Assembly (NCBI GenBank): GCA_947628665.1
Contig: CANRAU010000019.1
Span: 1-39,368, forward strand
Length of the DNA stretch: 39,368 nt
Origin: an uncultured Clostridia bacterium
GTDB taxonomy: Bacteria > Bacillota > Clostridia > Oscillospirales > Acutalibacteraceae
Reading direction: 5' to 3'
Positions 26,559 through 39,368 of the stretch are shown in pieces (the first letter of the stretch is position 1; every line of letters begins with the position of its first letter). The notes below the pieces were generated by a model. That model saw only the letters and a list, made by a program, of their open reading frames with translations, was not told where the DNA came from and searched no databases. Position numbers and translations under genes: made by a program.

Positions 26559-26645
26559 GCCGCTGTGGCGAAATCGGCAGACGCAAGGGACTTAAAATCC
26601 CTCGGTGGCAACACCGTACCGGTTCAAGTCCGGTCAGCGGCACCA
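26559..26645 (+). tRNA. tRNA-Leu (anticodon TAA)
   Basis: A class II tRNA with CCA encoded. The acceptor GCCGCTG pairs with CAGCGGC, the anticodon arm is GGGA-CTTAAAA-TCCC, the variable arm is long, and the T-arm carries GGTTCAAGTCC. It marks the left limit of the accessory region and could be an integration target. Confidence 0.97.
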
Positions 26646-29186: not shown

Positions 29187-29212
29187 GATCTGTGCGGAAA
29201 GTTGGTAAATGT

Positions 29213-29815
29213 ATGATCCACAGAGAGAAACTACGAAGCATGGCCGATGCAAGCGGTGGCGTATTCAGAACCTCGGATCTGAAAGCACTTGGCTATAACA
29301 CCTATGCCATTCGCAAACTGGTCAATGAACAAATCATCGAACGGGTAAAATCGGGTTATTACCGTCTCAGTGAATCGTCCCAAATACTGTCGGAAGCTGC
29401 ACAGGTAGCACAGCTGTTTCCTGACGGCGTTCTGTGTATGTATACAGCACTGTTCTATTACAGATATTCTGACCGGACACCACTGGAATGGAATGTTGCC
29501 GTAGACCGTGATACATCCAAGTCCCGGTTTAAACTGGATTATCCGTTTGTTCAGCCGTACTACATGAAGAAAGAATTCCTTTCCTTTGGTGTAACTACAG
29601 CGGATTATGGGGACTGCACTATGCAAATATTTGACCGGGATCGGCTGATTTGTGAATGTATTTTCTATGAAAATAAGATGGACCGGGAGACCTATAACAA
29701 GGCAATTCAGGGATATGTGGCAGATGCAAAAAAGAATGTTCCCAAACTGCTGGAATATGCAGAGAAGAGAAGAATTCTGAAAAAGGTAAAAGATCGGATT
29801 GGAGTGTGGCTCTGA
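29213..29815 (+). CDS. abiEi: AbiEi-type antitoxin/transcription regulator, 200 aa
   Basis: The antitoxin half of the type IV AbiE abortive-infection system. The N-terminal winged helix (about 1-55) shows the family pattern GGVFRTSDLKALGYNTYAIR then KLVNEQIIERVKSGYYRL. The C-terminal domain has AQLFPDGVLCMYTALFYYRY and IFDRDRLICECIFYENKMD, matching the AbiEi antitoxin C-domain. It acts by DNA binding and by opposing the toxin without a stable complex. The start is taken as the ATG at 29213 over a GTG 21 bases earlier; neither has a strong ribosome site. Its stop overlaps the toxin start (TGATG). Confidence 0.9.
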   Translation: MIHREKLRSMADASGGVFRTSDLKALGYNTYAIRKLVNEQIIERVKSGYYRLSESSQILSEAAQVAQLFPDGVLCMYTALFYYRYSDRTPLEWNVAVDRDTSKSRFKLDYPFVQPYYMKKEFLSFGVTTADYGDCTMQIFDRDRLICECIFYENKMDRETYNKAIQGYVADAKKNVPKLLEYAEKRRILKKVKDRIGVWL

Positions 29816-30723
29816 TGGATATGGGCGCATCGGTCATTGTGCGACTGAAAAACAAGGCAAAAGAAACTGGGAAGCCCTTCCAGTTGCACTTGCAGCTATT
29901 CTGCCAGGAGGAGTTCCTTCGGCGACTGTCAGCATCCCGGTATGCTGAAAATCTGGTGCTAAAGGGCGGCCTGTTCATCTATACTCTGACTAATTTTGAG
30001 AGCCGTGCCACTGTGGATATTGATTTTCTGTTGCGTCAGTTCCCTGGGACAGTTGAAGACATCAAACGAATGGTAGATGAAATAATCGCTGTAGACAGCG
30101 GCAATGATTTCATAACCTTTTCTTCCCGGGGATTTGAAACGATTTCGCCGCAGCGGAAATATACTGGTGTAAGTTTCCAGTTGGTGGGCCAAATCAAAAA
30201 CACCTGCACTCCCTTTGACGTGGATTTTGGTGTTGGCGATGTTATTGTTCCCAACTCACACAAGCGGACGATCCCTGTGCAGTTGGACGGATTTGAAGTT
30301 CCGAAGGTGTTGACCTACTCTCTGGAGAGCACGATTGCAGAGAAATTTGATGCACTGCTCCAGCGTCTGGAATTGACCAGCCGCATGAAGGATATTTACG
30401 ATATTTATTATCTGTCCTCTATGTTCGATTTTGATGGAAGAGCCCTCCAGCAGGCTGTCTTTGAAACGCTGCAGAATCGAGGCACCGCATACGAGCGGGA
30501 CAGCTTCGACCGGGTGATTGCCTTGGCAGATAATAAGGATATTCAGGTCCGCTGGCGTCAGTATCTGCGCAGGCTAAAGATGTCGGAACTGGCGTTGGAT
30601 GATGTAATGAACAGTATTGATGCTTTCTTGAGACCCGTCTGGAATGCAATCATTGACGAACAGGAGCTGTTCTTGGGATGGAAGCACGAGAGTGCAGCTT
30701 GGTCCGAACCTAAAGTTGACTGA
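29815..30723 (+). CDS. abiEii: AbiEii-type nucleotidyltransferase toxin, 302 aa
   Basis: A DNA-polymerase-beta-fold nucleotidyltransferase of the AbiEii/MenA group. Members halt growth upon phage infection, and some modify tRNA acceptor ends. The sequence has VLKGGLFIYTLTNFESRATV near residue 47, the metal-binding D-x-D in VDIDF near 66-70, and the C-terminal RMKDIYDIYYL segment near 190 that holds the conserved Lys-Asp motif. The start is the ATG overlapping the antitoxin stop; a GTG 9 bases earlier is less likely. It is a complete gene, with all key motifs intact. Confidence 0.9.
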   Translation: MDMGASVIVRLKNKAKETGKPFQLHLQLFCQEEFLRRLSASRYAENLVLKGGLFIYTLTNFESRATVDIDFLLRQFPGTVEDIKRMVDEIIAVDSGNDFITFSSRGFETISPQRKYTGVSFQLVGQIKNTCTPFDVDFGVGDVIVPNSHKRTIPVQLDGFEVPKVLTYSLESTIAEKFDALLQRLELTSRMKDIYDIYYLSSMFDFDGRALQQAVFETLQNRGTAYERDSFDRVIALADNKDIQVRWRQYLRRLKMSELALDDVMNSIDAFLRPVWNAIIDEQELFLGWKHESAAWSEPKVD

Positions 30724-30746: not shown

Positions 30747-30796
30747 TGAGAGTTTTATTGGACAAATTCAATGATACTGTTTTATGGAGGCCGAAT

Positions 30797-32149
30797 ATGG
30801 AAAACAATTGTGTTGATACATTGGAGTATCTTTTGAAAATAAAAAGTGAGAAAAAGAAAAAGGAACCTTCTAAAATTGAACGAGATCAATTCTGTGCTGC
30901 TTGGGTGCGATTAGCTGCTGGCGAAGGGTATTCCGAACGTGCGGAACGGTATCTTTACAACGGCGTAAGTTATTGCGGAGCCAAGCCGTTCAAGGAATAT
31001 ATCGATCAGCTTGAAAATAAGGAGCAGGGATTGCAGTCTTTCTTTGCAGGAAAAATGTACGGAACAAATGCTGAGACGACATTCCGTCTGCTGGCGCATC
31101 TGTTTGCGTTGGTGTTGAATGATAAAAAGTCAAGGTATTTGGTGTCTGTAATCATCATGCGGTTCCCTCATGCTTGCTTTAATAAAGACAAGAAACGGCT
31201 GGGTAATATCGAATCCATTTTACTCAAGTACTTCTTTGCAGAATTGGATCCCAATGTGTGTTTTGTGCCGTTGGCAGATATTGGGGTAAAGAAACCGGTG
31301 TTTATCGTTGACTTTATTTCTGCTATGGAAGTTGCTTTTGAAAAAATCGATTCAAACGGGCTGTCAAAAAGCAAGATAGCCAATATGGAAAAGGTGAAGC
31401 AGTGGATCGAAGAATACCGCCAGCCGAAGGCTGCTGAAAAAAGTCCCCAAACAGTTCCTTCCTGTGAAAAAGTTTATGCCGATTCAACGAGTAACTTGGT
31501 GGATGGTGTCATTTCTGCGATGCCTGTACCTGCAGTTGTTCCTCCTGTAGATCCTGCACCCGAAGTACGTTCTCCGGCCACAGAAAAGCAACCCCAAGTG
31601 CCGGGAGAACCCGCAGGCATTGCACCTGTAACAGTTGAGGATACGTCTGCCGGTGCGGCAACTTATCTTATCGACTTGCTTACCAAGGCAAGTAGGGCTG
31701 CAACTATTGTTAAGACTGAAGGTGTGCAGCAAAAAATAAAGATTGATGCATTGACTCAGGCGCTAAGAGATGAGCAGGAGAAAACACATCAAGCCACCCA
31801 GCAGATCGCAGATCAGCAGGCCACCATTGCAGAACTGAGAAAGAAGTTAGCTTCAGCAGAGGGTGACATTTTTGTTTTAAGACAGGATGTGGCTCAGCGG
31901 GACGCTGTTATTGCTGAAAAAGATGCTGAAATAGCAGAAAGAGTTAAAATGGCAGAGGTTCTCAGCCGGGACAGAAGCAAACAGGCAGACGAGTCTCTGC
32001 AGAGGCTTGCGTCCAAAATCCGAGTCGAATATCGGGATTTTGTGGATGCATTGGATGTGCCTATGAGCTGCGATTTGGGTGAGAATTTGAGACTCCAACT
32101 TCAAAGTATCTTCGACATACTGGAAAAAGGCGGCATGAAATTTAAGTGA
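30797..32149 (+). CDS. Unknown helical/coiled-coil protein, possible GrpE-like partner of the Hsp70, 450 aa
   Basis: I do not recognise the whole protein. Residues 1 to about 200 are helical and globular (FCAAWVRLAAGEGYSERAER, then LLAHLFALVLNDKKSRYLVS). About 205-280 is a Pro/Ala/Val-rich linker (MPVPAVVPPVDPAPEV). About 295-400 is a long coiled coil (ALRDEQEKTHQATQQIADQQ). The last ~45 residues read like a short bundle, EYRDFVDALDVPMSCDLGEN then LRLQLQSIFDILEKGGM. A coiled coil followed by such an end recalls GrpE, the nucleotide exchange factor of Hsp70, and the Hsp70-like gene follows 11 bases later; this is inference. GGAGG lies 6 bases before the ATG at 30797. There is no signal peptide or membrane segment. 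Confidence 0.7.
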   Translation: MENNCVDTLEYLLKIKSEKKKKEPSKIERDQFCAAWVRLAAGEGYSERAERYLYNGVSYCGAKPFKEYIDQLENKEQGLQSFFAGKMYGTNAETTFRLLAHLFALVLNDKKSRYLVSVIIMRFPHACFNKDKKRLGNIESILLKYFFAELDPNVCFVPLADIGVKKPVFIVDFISAMEVAFEKIDSNGLSKSKIANMEKVKQWIEEYRQPKAAEKSPQTVPSCEKVYADSTSNLVDGVISAMPVPAVVPPVDPAPEVRSPATEKQPQVPGEPAGIAPVTVEDTSAGAATYLIDLLTKASRAATIVKTEGVQQKIKIDALTQALRDEQEKTHQATQQIADQQATIAELRKKLASAEGDIFVLRQDVAQRDAVIAEKDAEIAERVKMAEVLSRDRSKQADESLQRLASKIRVEYRDFVDALDVPMSCDLGENLRLQLQSIFDILEKGGMKFK

Positions 32150-32160
32150 GGTGAAAAGCC

Positions 32161-33627
32161 GTGGCAACTGGATTGAAATATTATTTTGGCATTGACTTCG
32201 GCACAACCAACAGTGCAACCGTTGGATATGTGGTGATGGATCAAAAGCCGGAAGCTGTTAAATACGGCGATGAAGAAGGACGTCCGATCCCGTCCGTTGT
32301 TGCGATTGATAAGGCCACTGGCGCTGTATTCAATGGCCGGGATGCATGGGATAAAAAGATGGAGCTGAGTGAATCCTGTGAGTATATCTCATCAGTCAAG
32401 ACCATCCTGGATTCTGAGCAGATAAAAACAATTGCAGGCCGCGAATGGACTGCTGTCGATGTGGCCAGCGAGGTTTTTAAGTATCTGAAAGCCAATGTGC
32501 ATAATCGTACCGGAATTGACATGGAAGAGGCAACTGTGGCAATTCCCGTTGGATTCAGCGCATCCAAGCGTTCAAAACTGCGTGAAGCAGCAAAGAAGGT
32601 CGGTATCTATATCCGTTCTTTTATCAGCGAACCCACTGCTGCCTTTTTTGCAAATTATGATGAACTGAAAAGTTCTTCTGTTGTTGCAATTTTTGACTGG
32701 GGCGGCGGTACGCTGGATGTATCCATTCTTCAGCATATTAACGGAAAGGTATCTGAATTGGCAACAGTCGGCAGAGATATTGCGGGTGACTATATCGATG
32801 ATAAAATTGCCAAGCGAATTCATGCAAAAATTGCCCGTAAAAAAGGTGTCGAGATGGCATTCGCAGATATGCCGTCCAGCGCTCAGGATATGATGCGGGT
32901 TCGCGCCGAGCGGGCAAAGCGTATGCTGGGCGATGATGATACCGCCACGATTTCCATCAATAACTATGGTGTGTATGGTGCCTGCCGTGAAACCTTGGAA
33001 TATGACTGGTTTGCGGATATTGTAGATCCTGAAGTCACTATGGCGATGGACTGCCTGGAGGAAGCTATCCGTCAGTCGGGAGTTGGGCTTGCCAATATCG
33101 ATCGGATTGTTATGGTGGGCGGTAGCAGCAATCTGCGTCCCCTCCTGGAGAAAATGGATGACAAGTATGGAGATAAACTGTTTTTCCCGGAAGAAACCAT
33201 GTGGAATGTCGGTCAGGGTGCTGCTATGCTGGCAATGGCTCCTGGTGGTTATTATGCCAACCAGTCTATCGGTATTGTGCTGAGTGACAATGCATACTAC
33301 GAAATCCTGAAGCCGGATACTCCAATTCGCGGATGGGAGCATACATGTCATTTTGGAATTGTGGATTCCAGCAAGGAAGCCCGTTTTGTTTTTGGTGGAA
33401 GTCCTGATATCGAGGCCTCTCCGGAAAGATATAAAACACTGTCGGTCCCCGCATACCGTTTCCTTCAGGAGCAGATTGTACTCAATGCTTCTGTTGATCA
33501 GAATATGGTGTTCACCGTTGTTGCCGGAAGTAATATGCAACCCGCAGAGTTCCGGCGGCTGTGGGAATACACACAGTTGAAGTGCTATTATAAGCTGCCT
33601 GGAAAGCAGGTGCAGCATGGAGAGTAA
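32161..33627 (+). CDS. Hsp70-like ATPase with reduced C-terminus, 488 aa
   Basis: An actin/Hsp70-fold ATPase. Phosphate-1 motif FGIDFGTTNSA lies at about residues 9-19, the EPTAAFF segment near 160, phosphate-2 IFDWGGGTLDVS near 178 and the adenosine motif VMVGGSSNLRPLL near 316. DnaK-like proteins usually have ~610 residues. Here only about 110 follow the ATPase domain (from ~375), so there is at most a small beta domain and no alpha-helical lid. It is therefore unlikely to be a general chaperone and more likely an ATP-driven switch or assembly factor for its operon partners. The start is a GTG with GAGGTG 7 bases upstream. It overlaps the helicase gene by 11 bases, pointing to coupled synthesis. 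Confidence 0.9.
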   Translation: MATGLKYYFGIDFGTTNSATVGYVVMDQKPEAVKYGDEEGRPIPSVVAIDKATGAVFNGRDAWDKKMELSESCEYISSVKTILDSEQIKTIAGREWTAVDVASEVFKYLKANVHNRTGIDMEEATVAIPVGFSASKRSKLREAAKKVGIYIRSFISEPTAAFFANYDELKSSSVVAIFDWGGGTLDVSILQHINGKVSELATVGRDIAGDYIDDKIAKRIHAKIARKKGVEMAFADMPSSAQDMMRVRAERAKRMLGDDDTATISINNYGVYGACRETLEYDWFADIVDPEVTMAMDCLEEAIRQSGVGLANIDRIVMVGGSSNLRPLLEKMDDKYGDKLFFPEETMWNVGQGAAMLAMAPGGYYANQSIGIVLSDNAYYEILKPDTPIRGWEHTCHFGIVDSSKEARFVFGGSPDIEASPERYKTLSVPAYRFLQEQIVLNASVDQNMVFTVVAGSNMQPAEFRRLWEYTQLKCYYKLPGKQVQHGE

Positions 33628-36091
33628 TATCAGTACTGTAGCGTTCCGGAGCAATTTGTATCCTGTAGAAAAGAGTTTTTATGAGGACTCAACTTTCCGC
33701 TCCAAAATACATGACCCATTTTCGCTGGAGCTTCTCAAAAAACAATGTGCATTGACGAGCCCTCAGAAGAAGGAATACGATTATGCATCGGTTCACTGCG
33801 CATACGCTGCAAAAAATGACTATCCTTGGGGAACGATTAGAGACCACCAAGGTCATGAGCAAGTTGTCTGCAGGTGCCTTAATACGAAATGCAGCCACTT
33901 TCATAGTTGCCGTCCCGATTTTGATCCTTCCGAGTTGGCGATACATGAGGAGAACAAAAGGGCTCAACCGGCAATTTTTGAATTTGAAGAAGCTGCACGA
34001 AAGAAGCGTGCATCAGAAGATGGAGATGCCGGAGCGGCAGCGAAACTGTTTGCAGGAGACAACCTGGAACAGAAGTATGCTGGAGAATCGGGGACTCCAA
34101 CTCCTGCAGAGAAAAAGCCTGATCCGGACGATCCGTTCATTGTCCGAAAACCTGTTCAGCCGATGTCCCAGCCTGCGGTGGCCAAGAAAATCGATTTTAG
34201 TTCCTTTAAAGAAACCACACAGGACAAAATCATTGAAGCGGAACCTGCAGAGCGCAGCATCGTAAATGCGGGCCCCGGCACGGGCAAGACGTGGACCTTG
34301 ATTGAAAAAATCATCCATATGATCAACGAGGAGCAGGCTAAAGCAGAGAATATCCTGGTTCTGTGTTTCTCACGCTCTGCCGTGGAGGTTGTACGGAACA
34401 GACTCTCTGATGCTGCTGAGACTGGACGCATCGGTTATGAGTGGCAGGATGTAGATGTGCGCACATTTGACTCCTTCTCTACATATATGCTGGCATGGGT
34501 GCAGGATAATCATAAGGATTTACTTCCCAAGCACTTCCTTCTGGAAGCGTATGACTATGATCAGCGCATAAAAGTTGCAACATCCATTTTCAAAAAGAAA
34601 AAGGATATGCTGGCTGATTATGAGCATATCATCGTCGACGAGGTTCAGGACCTTGTTGGCAGCCGGGCAGAGTTGGTCTTGGCGATGTTGAAAGGCCTCC
34701 CTGATACTTGTGGTTTTACGATTTTGGGCGATTCTTGTCAGGCTTTGTATGACTACATGGCAGAAGGTGATCCTGCGATTATGTCCTCTGAACAGTTCTA
34801 TCAGGACATTTTCAAAAGTTTCCCCAGTGCCAATTATTACACACTCACAGAGAATCACCGTCAGGGGGATACCTTTGGGCAGCTGACCGTCCCATACCGA
34901 AAGGCAATCCTTACTGGTTCCACCCAAGATCGGGTTTCAGCAGCAAGCGATTTATTGGCACACATCCCCCGGATGCCCGTAAAACTGACCAAGTTTTCAA
35001 GAAGCGATGCACTGCGATATGTTGGTCAAGGTGAGACATTGGGTATCCTTACCCGTACAAACGGACAGGCATTGCAGATCTCTGCATGGCTCCAAAATGC
35101 AGATGTTCCGCATGCCTTGCACCGTGGCTTGGGGTCTCCAACACTGGGCGACTGGATTGCTCGTATATTCTGTGACTACGAAAACGAATCTGTTGATGAA
35201 TCTGCCTTTGTGGCAAAGCATCTTGCCTTGTTTCCAGAGGCTGGATATGAAATGGCACGAATGCGGTGGATGGCCCTTGTTTCAACACAGCGTGGCGAAG
35301 CACGGAACAGATACGAGGTTGCAGATTTGTTGAAAGGCCTCTTGAGAAATGCCAAGGAGCCAATGCTGTACGAATCCGGTACGGGGTCCAGGCACGCTAT
35401 TACGGTCAGCAATATTCACCGGGCAAAGGGTAAAGAGTTTGATTCTGTAATTGTCATTGACGATGTGATTGAGGCAATGGCAGATCCCGATACAGAAGAC
35501 CTTTTGGAACACAAGGTATGTTACGTTGCGCTGACACGGCCTAAGAAAAAGGTAGAAAGAGCCGAGATTTCCAAAAAGGACAAACAGATCTACATTATGA
35601 GGAACGACGATCAAAGCAAACGGTGTGCAAAAGCCGGTGGCTTTAAACGTTATATTTCTCATTTCGAGGTTGGCAGTGATGCCGACCTGGATCTGCGCTC
35701 TTTCGCCGCTGAAAATAAACTTCAGCCGTATATCCGGAAAAGTGTTCATTCTGGGACGAGATTGAAACTGCTCAAATGTCCGGAAGGAACAAAACCCTAT
35801 GTTGTATATCGAATTGTACTGGAAGACAACGAAAAGTTTGTACTGGGCTATACCAGCAAATCTTTTGCGCGTGAACTGGAAAAGGCAATTCAGCATATAA
35901 AAAACATGAATTGCTCGGTGTATTTTGATGTATATCCGCATGCATTTTGTGATGTGTATGTACACAACATTACGACGTGTGTATCTGGAATAGCCCCTGT
36001 TCCAGCAGGTGCAAAGACTTTTGGAGATGTCAGTATTTGGTCTGGCATAACCATCACAGGGTTTGCGGCAGTTGACAAAGACACTTACTAA
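33617..36091 (+). CDS. UvrD/Rep-family SF1 helicase with N-terminal cysteine cluster, 824 aa
   Basis: A DNA helicase of superfamily 1A with extra parts. About residues 1-200 are not helicase: a Cys/His cluster (VCRCLNTKCSHFHSC near 84-98) suggests a zinc or Fe-S knuckle, followed by a charged linker. The core shows NAGPGTGKTWTL (216-227), IIVDEVQDL near 338, the TENHRQG segment near 413, NIHRAKGKEFDSVIVID near 598 and VCYVALTRPKKKV near 634. After the core, about 150 residues end the protein in no recognised domain. The start overlaps the Hsp70-like gene. In defence loci such helicases act with nucleases, but no nuclease domain is obvious here. Confidence 0.88.
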   Translation: MESNISTVAFRSNLYPVEKSFYEDSTFRSKIHDPFSLELLKKQCALTSPQKKEYDYASVHCAYAAKNDYPWGTIRDHQGHEQVVCRCLNTKCSHFHSCRPDFDPSELAIHEENKRAQPAIFEFEEAARKKRASEDGDAGAAAKLFAGDNLEQKYAGESGTPTPAEKKPDPDDPFIVRKPVQPMSQPAVAKKIDFSSFKETTQDKIIEAEPAERSIVNAGPGTGKTWTLIEKIIHMINEEQAKAENILVLCFSRSAVEVVRNRLSDAAETGRIGYEWQDVDVRTFDSFSTYMLAWVQDNHKDLLPKHFLLEAYDYDQRIKVATSIFKKKKDMLADYEHIIVDEVQDLVGSRAELVLAMLKGLPDTCGFTILGDSCQALYDYMAEGDPAIMSSEQFYQDIFKSFPSANYYTLTENHRQGDTFGQLTVPYRKAILTGSTQDRVSAASDLLAHIPRMPVKLTKFSRSDALRYVGQGETLGILTRTNGQALQISAWLQNADVPHALHRGLGSPTLGDWIARIFCDYENESVDESAFVAKHLALFPEAGYEMARMRWMALVSTQRGEARNRYEVADLLKGLLRNAKEPMLYESGTGSRHAITVSNIHRAKGKEFDSVIVIDDVIEAMADPDTEDLLEHKVCYVALTRPKKKVERAEISKKDKQIYIMRNDDQSKRCAKAGGFKRYISHFEVGSDADLDLRSFAAENKLQPYIRKSVHSGTRLKLLKCPEGTKPYVVYRIVLEDNEKFVLGYTSKSFARELEKAIQHIKNMNCSVYFDVYPHAFCDVYVHNITTCVSGIAPVPAGAKTFGDVSIWSGITITGFAAVDKDTY

Positions 36092-36115
36092 TTATATAGA
36101 ACCGGAGGTTTAGTT

Positions 36116-39100
36116 ATGGCTGACTATTCAAAATATTATGAAGCCAGGCAGGTTGTATCCCGCATTTTGGAGCAGGATTTTATTGGGCCTGTCACGAAAG
36201 ATGAATGCCTTGCTGAACTTCCGGTTCAGTATTACATCATGGGAAAACTGTATCCGCAAAAGGATACTGTGGAGGCATTGGATCTGGCGCGGAATCCCTT
36301 GTTGGAAAATGAGATTGAAACCTATGATGCGTCCATTTCCCTGAGTAACCAGAATAATCCATCTTCCATGGGTGTAACAGTTACATTGAAGGCAGGCATC
36401 AGTGCAATTTGTGTATCCGGCAGCTATGCCTTCTATGTGCCGATTTCCTTTGATGATGCAAAGGATTGTGGAATTGATACCTCCAAATGGGAGCATCTGG
36501 AAAAGAAGCCTAAGGAAATATGGCGGCGCAACGAGTATTCTTATGCCAAAAAAGTCATATTTACTGGTGAACGGGTGGAATACGCAGATTTACCCAACGG
36601 CCTCCAACTGCAGGTTTATACGCATTCCATTATGGATACCGGTGAGCGCGTGATTACGATTGCACTGGTTAATGAGAACCAGTCCGAAAATGATATGACC
36701 TCAACCTCCAGGTGTTGTGCTTTTCAGCCTGTCATCAGAGTAAGCAGCAGTGACGGAACAGCTGTTTTTATCAGCGTAAACCGGCAGACATATTTGACTA
36801 CCGATCCGGAGCTTCTGGAATTGGATATGCTGTATTCTGATGTTCATTGCTATGCACAGGGTCACGGATGCTCTGTTATGTGGGATATGCAGAATATCGA
36901 ACCCGAATGGGTGGAGTCTGCGTTTTTCCCAACATTCAACCTCCGTCAGATGAAAGCCGCAGAAGTGGTCAGTGGAAATGTATTGTCAATGCAATTTCTG
37001 GCTACCGCATCTGCTGATGAGGTCGTTCGTGAGTTAAGTGCATTTTCTGCTAAGTATCAGAAGTGGATTAAGGACCAAGGTGATCTCCTGTCTGGAATTA
37101 AGGACAGTTTGCAGGATGTTGCGAAAGGTAATATCCAAAAATGTCAGGATGCATGCAACAGAATAAACTATGCTATCAAGTTGCTGAAAGACAGTGCGGC
37201 TGGCGATGGAAAGGCTTTTCGTGCGTTCCAGCTTGCCAATGAGGCGATGCTGCTCCAACGGAGACAAACACTGCTGAAAAACGGAAAAACTTTTGATCCT
37301 GCCAAAGTAAGCTGGTATCCTTTCCAGCTGGCATTTGTGCTGCATGAGCTGACCTCTTTTATTGAACCGAAGGGGCATACCTGCCAGGATGTCCCGGATC
37401 GGCAGATGGTCGATCTGCTTTGGTTCCCCACCGGCGGTGGTAAAACAGAGGCGTATTTAGGTATTACTGCCTTTGTAATCTTTTTGCGCAGACTTCGTGA
37501 TGCAAACGCAGATGGTGTTACCGTAATTATGCGATATACACTTCGGCTTTTGACACTCCAGCAGTTTGAACGTGCCAGCATTCTGATCTTTGCATGTGAA
37601 CTGCTGCGAAAAAAGTATAATTTGGGTGGAAATGAGATTTCCATTGGATTGTGGGTCGGTGGCAACCTCACCCCCAATCATTTGAAAGATGCGAGAACCA
37701 GCATCAACAAGCAAAAACAGGGCGGTGTTGACGAAAAGTCAAATCCTGTTCAAATCAAAGTCTGTCCCTGGTGCGGTGAAAAACTGTATGCACAGCATTA
37801 TGATGTTGATCTCGTTCAGAACCGAATGACAATCAAATGCCCGAATCAGCATTGTCATTTCCATTCCGCGCCTGACGGTCTCCCAATTCATATTATTGAT
37901 GATGCTATTTACCAACATCTACCTACTTTTGTTGTGGCAACTGTAGATAAATTTGCTCAGATCCCGCTTAATGACAAACCAGCGGCGCTGTTTGGTATTG
38001 CGAATAACAAAAAACCTCCGGAACTTATTATCCAAGACGAGCTGCATTTGATTTCCGGTCCCCTCGGCACGATGACCGGAATCTATGAGGCTGCCATATC
38101 GAAACTCTGTGAGCGCGATGGTATTTGTGCAAAAGTGATTGCGTCCACCGCAACTATCCGAAATGCAGCAAATCAAGTCATGGCATTGTATGGGCGTGCC
38201 CACACGCAGTTCCCTCCACAGGGTCTTTCTGCGAAGGATTCGTTCTTTGCTATACAGTCTACACCGGAAGAAGGACCTGCCCGTCAGTACTTTGGCGTGA
38301 TGGGTATAGGAACGACTGCAACCACAACATTGATCAGAGTTAACGCAGCCATGTTGTTTGCTACGCGCTATTTGGCTACATTAGGATACCCTGATGCAGT
38401 TGTGGACAATTTCTGGACTATCACCGGCTATTTTAACAGCTTGCGTGAATTGGGCGGTGCAAGCACACAGATCCTTGATGACGTTCAGAGCCGTCTGGAT
38501 TACTTGGCGAAAACTAAATTTGCTTCGGTTTATCCCGGTGTTGATACTTCAAAAGGTTATACATATACGGAAGAACTGACGAGCCGCATGAGTAATTCTG
38601 AAATTACAGAAATTATCCAGGTTAAGCTGAAACGTGGCTATACCAAGGATAACCATGCGGATGTGTTTGATTATCTGCTGGCATCCAATATGATTTCTGT
38701 TGGTGTCGATGTTGGCCGTCTAGGAGCGATGGTAGTTGCCGGTCAGCCCAAGACTAATGCAGAATATATTCAGGCAACCAGCCGTGTTGGTCGTGATAAT
38801 CCCGGATTGGTTATTGCTGTGTACAACGCATCCCGTTCCCGTGACCGCTCACATTATGAGCAGTTCCTGAAGTATCATTCTGCGTTGTACCGCTATGTGG
38901 AAGCGACAAGCCTTACCCCCTTCTCTGATCGTGCAAGAGATCGTGGCCTGCATGCATTATATGTTTCTTTGTGCCGTTATCTGATTGAGAATCTCAGAGG
39001 AAACAGTCAGGCAATCAATTATCGCTCTGACAATCCCGAAATTCAAAAGGTTGAGAAAATCATTATCGACTATGTAAGAAGGGTTGATCCGGATGAGTTG

Positions 39101-39295
39101 TCGGCAGTTATGGATGAACTCAAAGATATTCAGGATGCGTGGGACATTGCAGCAATCGGTTCCCTCGTATATAAAAGCAGAAAAAATGAGAAAAAGTTGC
39201 TGAAAGGTGATACCGAAAATGACCGTTTCCGTACGATGAACAGCATGCGGAATGTGGATGGCCAGTCGGGTATTTATCTGCTGGGAGGATTGTAA
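36116..39295 (+). CDS. DISARM DrmA-like SF2 helicase, 1059 aa
   Basis: A large superfamily 2 helicase resembling DrmA, the helicase subunit of DISARM phage defence. The first ~420 residues are a non-helicase N-domain. Motif I is LWFPTGGGKTEAYLGI near 434-449 and motif II is a DELH form, IIQDELHLISGPLGT near 637. Motif III is STAT near 677. Motifs V and VI are SVGVDVGRLGAMV and IQATSRVGRD near 860-892, followed by the DrmA-type SRSRDRSHYEQFLKYHSALYRYVE (shortened here as RSRDRSHYEQF). A zinc ribbon sits between motifs I and II (CPWCG near 549, then CPNQHC near 574). GGAGG precedes the ATG, 24 bases after the UvrD-type gene. Partners known from DISARM, such as the DUF1998 protein DrmB, would be beyond the edge if present. 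Confidence 0.88.
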   Translation: MADYSKYYEARQVVSRILEQDFIGPVTKDECLAELPVQYYIMGKLYPQKDTVEALDLARNPLLENEIETYDASISLSNQNNPSSMGVTVTLKAGISAICVSGSYAFYVPISFDDAKDCGIDTSKWEHLEKKPKEIWRRNEYSYAKKVIFTGERVEYADLPNGLQLQVYTHSIMDTGERVITIALVNENQSENDMTSTSRCCAFQPVIRVSSSDGTAVFISVNRQTYLTTDPELLELDMLYSDVHCYAQGHGCSVMWDMQNIEPEWVESAFFPTFNLRQMKAAEVVSGNVLSMQFLATASADEVVRELSAFSAKYQKWIKDQGDLLSGIKDSLQDVAKGNIQKCQDACNRINYAIKLLKDSAAGDGKAFRAFQLANEAMLLQRRQTLLKNGKTFDPAKVSWYPFQLAFVLHELTSFIEPKGHTCQDVPDRQMVDLLWFPTGGGKTEAYLGITAFVIFLRRLRDANADGVTVIMRYTLRLLTLQQFERASILIFACELLRKKYNLGGNEISIGLWVGGNLTPNHLKDARTSINKQKQGGVDEKSNPVQIKVCPWCGEKLYAQHYDVDLVQNRMTIKCPNQHCHFHSAPDGLPIHIIDDAIYQHLPTFVVATVDKFAQIPLNDKPAALFGIANNKKPPELIIQDELHLISGPLGTMTGIYEAAISKLCERDGICAKVIASTATIRNAANQVMALYGRAHTQFPPQGLSAKDSFFAIQSTPEEGPARQYFGVMGIGTTATTTLIRVNAAMLFATRYLATLGYPDAVVDNFWTITGYFNSLRELGGASTQILDDVQSRLDYLAKTKFASVYPGVDTSKGYTYTEELTSRMSNSEITEIIQVKLKRGYTKDNHADVFDYLLASNMISVGVDVGRLGAMVVAGQPKTNAEYIQATSRVGRDNPGLVIAVYNASRSRDRSHYEQFLKYHSALYRYVEATSLTPFSDRARDRGLHALYVSLCRYLIENLRGNSQAINYRSDNPEIQKVEKIIIDYVRRVDPDELSAVMDELKDIQDAWDIAAIGSLVYKSRKNEKKLLKGDTENDRFRTMNSMRNVDGQSGIYLLGGL

Positions 39296-39346
39296 GTCTG
39301 AAAAATAAAGCACAAACGGTAGAGTAAAAAAGAGCGCAATAAAGCA

Positions 39347-39364
39347 GACCACCTTCAAGTGGTC
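39347..39364. terminator. Short hairpin at the right edge
   Basis: GACCAC (39347-39352) pairs with GTGGTC (39359-39364). The window ends four bases later in AAAA, so it is unclear whether this is a terminator (on the minus strand a T-run precedes rather than follows) or part of a larger structure. The 50 bases between the helicase stop and this stem show no gene start. Confidence 0.3.
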
Positions 39365-39368
39365 AAAA

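Follow-up and report, generated by a model that had tools for sequence, protein, structure and literature searches.

A chaperone-type ATPase is encoded within a DISARM locus

Why should a DNA restriction system carry a chaperone? This question is raised by the right-hand end of contig CANRAU010000019.1 (assembly GCA_947628665.1) from an uncultured Clostridia bacterium of the Acutalibacteraceae, where four consecutive genes encode a coiled-coil protein, an Hsp70, a UvrD-type helicase and a helicase of the DISARM defense system. The window, that is, the whole stretch of DNA analyzed, is this entire contig (C19, 39368 bases) of a 2.0-Mb, 35-contig genome. A first-pass annotation, made from the letters alone, had described a DISARM-related cassette of four plus-strand genes with gaps of 11, -11 and 24 bases. 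Open reading frame (ORF) coordinates agree: the coiled-coil protein gene spans 30797-32149 (ATG start, with an in-frame TTG at 30758), the Hsp70-like gene 32161-33627 (PF00012, 9.7e-35), the UvrD-like helicase gene 33617-36091 (PF00580, 7.4e-24) and drmA 36116-39295, all on the + strand, and the contig ends at 39368, 73 bases past drmA. The identities first given to the upstream three, a coiled-coil protein, a lidless Hsp70 and a UvrD with a Cys cluster, hold up in family matches, alignments and a structure model.

The fourth gene encodes a true DrmA, not merely a DrmA-like helicase as first described, since the protein passes the cut-off of NCBIfam NF038325 DISARM_DrmAS (984.2 bits vs. 950). 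It also matches PADLOC PDLC02575 at 6.4e-236, and its sole match in the PDB at E<=1e-5 is DrmA itself (7s9v/7s9w; 7s9v at 1.9e-149). The possibility, raised at the outset, that its closest relatives are housekeeping helicases is contradicted by these matches to DISARM models and by its grouping with DrmA genes that mostly lie before drmB. The window protein is a short form of this superfamily 2 (SF2) helicase. It aligns to the Serratia DrmA chain from residue 72, versus residue 224, and seems, from this alignment, to have little room for the 55-residue trigger loop of Serratia DrmA. Trigger-loop shortening as an Hsp70-specific trait was considered and rejected: DrmA proteins without Hsp70 share the short form, which is therefore uninformative about Hsp70 (the survey relied on a rough motif-distance measure, which broke down for 45 of 95 rows and yielded one obviously wrong value).

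The other half of the system probably lies on contig C7. The single MZB/DUF1998 match of the genome (C7:1578-1883) is found at the start of that contig, where DrmB (DUF1998/MZB; C7 75-1997; NF038324, 506 bits vs. a cut-off of 240) is followed by a protein with NERD and superfamily 1 (SF1) helicase domains, the DrmMII cytosine methyltransferase (C7 3782-5056; PADLOC DrmMII at 4.3e-160; PCQ and ENV motifs), Vsr and a small helix-turn-helix protein. The D...ExK nuclease motif of the NERD domain is kept in all eight aligned proteins, five of them from Hsp70-type loci. Of the genes that the first-pass annotation had proposed to seek beyond the contig end, DUF1998 and the methyltransferase are thus both on C7; a phospholipase D (PLD) nuclease of the DrmC type was not found, a search of the genome with PLDc_2 giving nothing at E<=0.001 (the control was positive in 12 of 14 genomes). 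There was no DrmE_fam match in the genome either (control positive in 1 of 14, below the cut-off; DrmD was not searched for), and hhalign found no homology of any module protein to DrmE (E 0.22-0.94). The suggestion that a chaperone ATPase and a second helicase replace the accessory genes of DISARM stands, with DrmD outside the search, for DrmE and the PLD nuclease, and falls for the methyltransferase. The DISARM relationship itself comes out stronger than claimed, DrmA and DrmB both exceeding NCBIfam cut-offs with DrmMII beside them. Judged from their sequences, the four genes very probably form part of a DISARM variant in which a coiled-coil protein, a lidless Hsp70 and a Cys-cluster UvrD stand upstream of drmA. 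DrmC is reported as dispensable in the excerpts of PMC9142583 on which we draw.

The four-gene order recurs across phyla

Is the chaperone a chance neighbor? The DrmA model matched 60 of 398 phylum genomes at E<=0.001, most of them weakly, and 18 at E<=1e-100. Hsp70 lies beside drmA in four of these 18 (the window's own genome, G033, G080 and G327), the upstream side being cut by a contig end in G153, G331, G343 and G362. Among relatives (the best 80 of 586, Hsp70 labelled by phmmer), nine carry Hsp70 on the drmA strand: L055, L057, L058, L059, L061, L062, L071, L072 and L075. As L059 is the same locus as L041 of G080, these nine together with L044 (G033) and L049 (G327) make 11 Hsp70 loci besides the window. 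Loci were chosen by a same-strand Hsp70 match at most four genes upstream or five downstream of drmA, so that the common strand follows in part from the selection; gene order and the coiled-coil neighbor were no part of the selection. L117 was not counted (weak Hsp70 match of 99 bits on the opposite strand), and neighborhoods were not judged in L082, L086 and L124, which have no DrmA ORF over threshold.

Ten other loci, from Bacillota, Synergistota and Melainabacteria, have homologs of all four genes in this order. The co-occurrence on which the first-pass annotation had staked its claim is thus real, and the recurrence is more than chance. Junctions in the 10 loci are tight (36 of the 38 measured overlap or are separated by fewer than 15 bases, the exceptions being 39 and 96). 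In nine of the 11 other Hsp70 loci drmB follows drmA, whereas the contig ends too early in the remaining two (L044 and L075). A NERD helicase follows DrmB in L055, L057, L058 and L059. Distance matrices for the window and 10 loci, L049 being excluded, are correlated for Hsp70 and DrmA (r=0.91), coiled-coil protein and DrmA (0.79) and Hsp70 and UvrD (0.78), each with a Mantel p of 0.0005, which is the floor of 2000 permutations; the weakest pair is coiled-coil protein and DrmB (r=0.58, p 0.001). In a DrmA tree of 95 rows, built by a quick method without bootstrap and leaving out L041 and L054 (duplicates) and L053 (a fragment), 11 of the 12 Hsp70-labelled rows fall inside one clade of 14 (SH-like approximate likelihood ratio test, 100). 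The twelfth, L049, falls outside. Of the remaining three rows of the clade, two (L056 and L098) start at a contig edge, and the third, L060, carries ZorA/ZorB-like genes instead of Hsp70.

Other genes are found at the position of the chaperone module, or next to it. In L060:3613-14869, from an Acetatifactor metagenome-assembled genome, ZorA- and ZorB-like (8.2e-75) and weak ZorC-like genes lie directly upstream of UvrD-DrmA-DrmB, and, judged by its predicted genes, this locus combines Zorya with DISARM within the Hsp70-type DrmA clade. A sister DrmA clade has proteins of ~1550-1850 aa upstream of UvrD-DrmA (L063:2057-7564 and L064:3392-8077), with TmtA-like N-terminal PADLOC matches, a weak Sacsin match (PF25794, below cut-off) and an SF2 helicase. 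An Hsp90-type ATPase possibly occupies the Hsp70 slot there. Upstream genes of similar size are present in many Actinomycetota loci between L065 and L126 (by size only, the scans being of L063 and L064). Type II restriction genes lie just upstream of two Hsp70-DISARM operons, HpaII-type on the opposite strand in L057:955-4440 and LlaJI-type in L055:2426-3898. A large extra gene stands upstream in L041/L059, L044, L061 and L182 (1016-1040 aa; 640 in L061 and 873 in L182); the three copies that were scanned (L041, L061 and L044) gave no Pfam match, and a search without positive control did not find the gene in the window's genome. Isolates with the chaperone module include Eubacterium coprostanoligenes ATCC 51222 (L057) and Anaerosalibacter bizertensis (L061).

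The Hsp70 keeps its ATPase site and lacks a lid

The Hsp70 (488 aa; 32161-33627, +) consists of an ATPase domain and a β-type substrate-binding domain (SBD-β). The ATPase residues D12, K80, E157, D179, T184 and D186, whose catalytic roles we take over from DnaK/Hsc70, are present and invariant in 10 of 10 aligned Hsp70s. A profile of 10 homologs aligns to DnaK (4rtf_D, 8.7e-58) over the ATPase domain and SBD-β. An AlphaFold2 model (predicted local distance difference test [pLDDT] 86.6, predicted template modeling score [pTM] 0.86) matches DnaK with a Foldseek TMq of up to 0.79, and the lid-truncated DnaK structures 5obu and 5obv are among its top four matches. The SBD-β-like part, residues 363-478 (33247-33594, +), is a set of β-strands, as indicated by model secondary structure, alignment to the DnaK SBD and Foldseek, and the protein ends after it, with no SBD-α lid in either alignment or model. 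These proteins stand apart from DnaK: 14 DnaKs form one clade (100/100), a long branch away from the present Hsp70s. The Gastranaerophilales Hsp70 (L058:1830-4175) bears an N-terminal array of tetratricopeptide repeats.

The UvrD-type protein (33617-36091, +) is an SF1 helicase (UvrD/GajB-like) with the motifs GPGTGKT, VDEVQD, GDSCQA, NHRQ and YVALTR, preceded by an N-terminal Cys domain and followed by a conserved C-terminal domain. C61, C87, C92 and C98 of the Cys cluster region (33797-33910, +), a putative Zn site, are invariant in 10 of 10 aligned proteins.

The coiled-coil protein (450 aa) displays a helical N-terminal domain (~26-208), a disordered linker (211-285), a 133-residue helix (286-418) and a C-terminal helix (425-444) in an AlphaFold2 model of mean pLDDT 77.3 and pTM 0.47, which has no fold match in the PDB at E<=0.001 (Foldseek). 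The upstream neighbor of Hsp70 was first assigned by position and then tested by a leave-one-out profile; homology holds in 10 of 10 alignment members (E<=5.7e-12). The full profile recovers the protein of L044 and misses that of L049, and among 1347 background ORFs it matches nothing beyond the alignment loci, L044 and the module loci L182-L184. In a comparison with 11 GrpE sequences from 15 loci, one of them a 76-residue fragment, hhalign gave GrpE homology a probability of 2.6%, with E 0.018 for one pair over 14 columns, and there is no GrpE among the Foldseek matches listed (50 of 444 at E<=10).

The module also occurs outside DISARM

The Hsp70 profile scores above 300 bits in eight of the 398 phylum genomes, the next listed match being 224. 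Three of the eight are the window's own genome and those of the G080 and G033 loci. The other five (G077, G164, G109, G354 and G311) are not among the 60 DrmA-matching genomes (E<=0.001). L182 (G077) comprises the large gene, a coiled-coil protein, Hsp70 and the start of a UvrD, where the contig ends. DrmA was not found on the stretches examined for L183-L186. In L183 (G164), a coiled-coil protein and Hsp70 are joined by a 563-aa UvrD derivative that matches only positions 3-152 and 422-802 of the 804-position profile: the motor core is missing, and both flanks are kept beside Hsp70. The module is followed by genes for a PLD nuclease resembling DrmC, a protein of 1019 aa, a GajB-like helicase, a BrxP-type PAPS reductase, SspB, SspC and SspA. 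L184 (G109), on a short contig, repeats the pattern with a coiled-coil protein, Hsp70 and a 541-aa motorless UvrD derivative with both flanks. In the tree, the L183 Hsp70 groups with those of the DISARM-linked L059 and L044 and with that of L182 (100/97).

L185 (G354) and L186 (G311) have a partly degenerate Hsp70 and a stand-alone Cys domain of 224-233 aa. At L185:8470-10698 and L186:8795-10948, in two genomes of one genus, there is no recognized defense gene among the ORFs compared, and the pair has possibly been domesticated. Because L183 and L184 keep the flanks without the motor, and L185 and L186 only the Cys domain, what accompanies Hsp70 is the Cys domain, together with the C-terminal domain in two of four loci, and not the motor.

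Flanking features and an insertion element between drmA and drmB

The intact AbiE pair that had been noted before the cassette is confirmed by PADLOC matches and ORF coordinates (AbiEi, 29192-29815, 1e-68; AbiEii, 29806-30723, 9.9e-86), and so is the AT-richer region beyond a tRNA: tRNA-Leu(TAA) lies at 26559-26645, and 2-kb windows have a G+C of 0.43-0.48 beyond 24 kb vs. 0.51-0.58 over 10-24 kb. A tRNA-integrated island was considered and rejected, no match of at least 12 bases to tRNA-Leu(TAA) being found in C7 1-20000 (both strands) or rightward in the window. Rfam families gave no match at the contig ends.

Why does the operon break between drmA and drmB? The final 76-77 bases of C19 are repeated at two other contig ends, and bases 79-150 of C7 at three others. 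Among 40 related genomes, the window's own included, two others (G398 and G069) have similar right ends, G403 having only a 19-base match, and one G069 copy (L158) extends inward to an IS110-family transposase. We read 39293-39368 (+) as the left end of an IS110-family-like element that is present in several copies and breaks the contig. In the closest relative, L055, drmA directly adjoins drmB (6 bases), and in the window's genome such an element probably sits between them, splitting the operon across C19 and C7. The join of the two contigs is inferred from gene content and relatives and is not proven, because several contig ends share the same repeat.

The junctions of the element (window 39293-39368; L003:79-150; L139-L141; L147, L150, L152, L154 and L156; L148, L151, L153, L155 and L157) have features of their own. 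An ATG lies within a few bases of the shared end in 14 of 14 inspected right junctions, out of 17 strong matches in three genomes, and a GGAGGA motif precedes each of the three left junctions in the window's genome. It looks as if the element targets the space between Shine-Dalgarno sequence and start codon; the junction ATG could be the element's own, and in L148 it opens no long frame.

What could the Hsp70 do in a restriction system?

We tentatively propose that the Hsp70 is an ATP-driven switch of a DISARM-type effector. According to excerpts of PMC9142583, Serratia DrmAB binds 5'-overhang DNA, and methylated DNA limits its ATPase. By analogy, DrmMII would mark host DNA with 5-methylcytosine and unmarked DNA would be attacked: DrmA and DrmB, the putative loading and unwinding core, would load onto phage DNA that is unmodified and has 5' single strands, the loaded DNA would be processed by the UvrD and NERD helicases, and the NERD domain, a candidate nuclease, would take over the cutting role of the missing PLD nuclease DrmC. 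Hsp70, partnered by the coiled-coil protein, would hold or release the Cys and C-terminal flanks of UvrD in an ATP-dependent cycle, through which the effector would assemble or fire only upon infection. In a broader form, which we regard as a serious possibility short of probable, a portable control module (coiled-coil protein, lidless Hsp70 and the Cys domain on UvrD or on a motorless remnant) plugs into DISARM and Ssp, two unrelated kinds of restriction that depend on DNA modification, and gates their effectors by the Hsp70 cycle.

Several observations weigh against this proposal. The interdomain linker, hydrophobic in canonical Hsp70s, is, in the profile alignment, about four residues shorter than that of DnaK and not conserved, and classical Hsp70 allostery may therefore be lost. 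In DnaK this linker matters for J-protein control. The GrpE identity of the coiled-coil protein, suggested by eye from its C terminus, is supported by neither sequence nor fold. The Hsp70s of L185 and L186 have lost some catalytic residues, and L060 is without Hsp70 inside the Hsp70-type clade, with ZorA/ZorB-like genes instead. L049 is a positional match only: its Hsp70, 25% identical to the window's and on a very long branch, is below the 1e-60 profile threshold, its UvrD has no Cys cluster and the profile misses its coiled-coil protein, so this eleventh locus may be much diverged or convergent, a separate recruitment. Finally, since drmA is probably separated from drmB by the insertion element, the window's own copy of the operon may be impaired.

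The Hsp70 might instead be a private chaperone for folding or assembly of the large helicases, setting expression level, not activation. An intact ATPase and SBD-β and strict co-inheritance with the helicases would fit such a role, which we nevertheless consider rather unlikely: many DISARM loci with equally large DrmA and DrmB show no nearby Hsp70, the lid and the canonical linker are absent, and the module persists where the helicase motor has been lost. That the Hsp70 is a sensor, whose SBD-β binds a phage protein or RNA and triggers the effector, is unlikely in our judgment. Units of Hsp70-like nucleotide-binding domain (NBD) and SBD are published parts of CoCoNuT systems, and excerpts of PMC11090510 propose ligand sensing for the CoCoNuT protein CnuD; in relatives, ZorAB and Sacsin/TmtA-like modules can also fill the position upstream of UvrD-DrmAB, as would be expected of a sensor slot. 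However, in the same excerpts CnuD has a degenerate Walker A-like motif with very low ATP hydrolysis at best, whereas window-type Hsp70s keep their catalytic residues, and no phage ligand is known.

Could the coiled-coil protein, Hsp70 and UvrD be a separate defense system that merely sits beside DISARM? Hsp70 does occur without an adjacent DrmA in L183, L184, L185 and L186, and PADLOC gives no match for the window Hsp70 and only weak or general ones for its coiled-coil and UvrD neighbors. We nonetheless judge this improbable in view of the fixed order, the mostly overlapping or abutting genes, the divergence correlated with DrmA, a UvrD-DrmA-DrmB adjacency that is wider than Hsp70 and, in L183, a module lying once again beside a modification system. 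Some helicases of the YprA family are repair enzymes (excerpts of PMC12458937), which would leave room for a cluster that serves DNA repair or housekeeping and has a YprA/MrfA-like helicase at its core. Separate DrmA and DrmB genes, both over DISARM cut-offs, together with DrmMII, Vsr and a patchy distribution (of 398 phylum genomes, 18 match DrmA strongly, at E<=1e-100), make this extremely improbable.

Relation to known systems and significance

Class 2 DISARM comprises DrmE-DrmA-DrmB-DrmC-DrmMII. The window's system shares DrmA, DrmB and DrmMII with it, and a NERD-type helicase is also found in the DrmE-type loci L047 and L048. In contrast to class 2, DrmE and the PLD nuclease were not found in the window's genome, and the coiled-coil protein, Hsp70 and UvrD stand upstream of drmA instead. 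The L183 locus likens the module to Ssp (SspABCD)/BREX-4-like phosphorothioate systems, its coiled-coil protein, Hsp70 and UvrD-derived protein lying beside SspB, SspC, SspA and a BrxP-type PAPS reductase; unlike in the window, the DNA mark is different, UvrD is without its motor core, and the locus also encodes a DrmC-like PLD nuclease and, separately, a GajB-like helicase. Type II ARMADA similarly pairs a YprA-family helicase with a UvrD/GajB-like helicase but, according to excerpts of PMC12458937, has BrxHII-like and PglX-like genes, whereas in the window's system, as in DISARM, DrmA and DrmB are encoded separately.

The one close precedent that we found for Hsp70-like defense proteins is CnuD of type III CoCoNuTs. 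The excerpts of PMC11090510 present CoCoNuTs as McrBC GTPase systems with RNA as the predicted target. CnuD, described there as ATPase-degenerate, combines an Hsp70-like NBD and SBD in a restriction-type operon with coiled-coil partners; a DISARM-like system tied to some McrBC branches is also announced there for separate publication. The window operon differs in its intact Hsp70 ATPase site and DrmAB core, and family scans of its proteins revealed no McrB or McrC. The term Hsp70 is absent from the main texts on the YprA family (PMC12458937), Dnd, BREX and shared domains, and no Hsp70 in DISARM or Ssp is described in the papers that the searches listed (titles and abstract openings, with few subscription papers and no supplements). 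Neither the Hsp70-bearing DISARM variant nor the occurrence with Ssp was found described there.

According to excerpts of PMC9142583, how DrmAB works together with DrmD and DrmE is still to be studied. For DISARM self-avoidance and accessory roles, the chaperone gene that is inherited together with drmA and lies upstream of it, in a genome where no DrmE was recognized, provides a concrete candidate regulator, and the natural domain deletions of L183, L184, L185 and L186 point to the parts of the module that are relevant. If the proposed gating is correct, Hsp70 machines would be regulatory parts of DNA restriction, and the ZorAB motor and Sacsin/TmtA-like modules would hold the same slot before UvrD-DrmAB.

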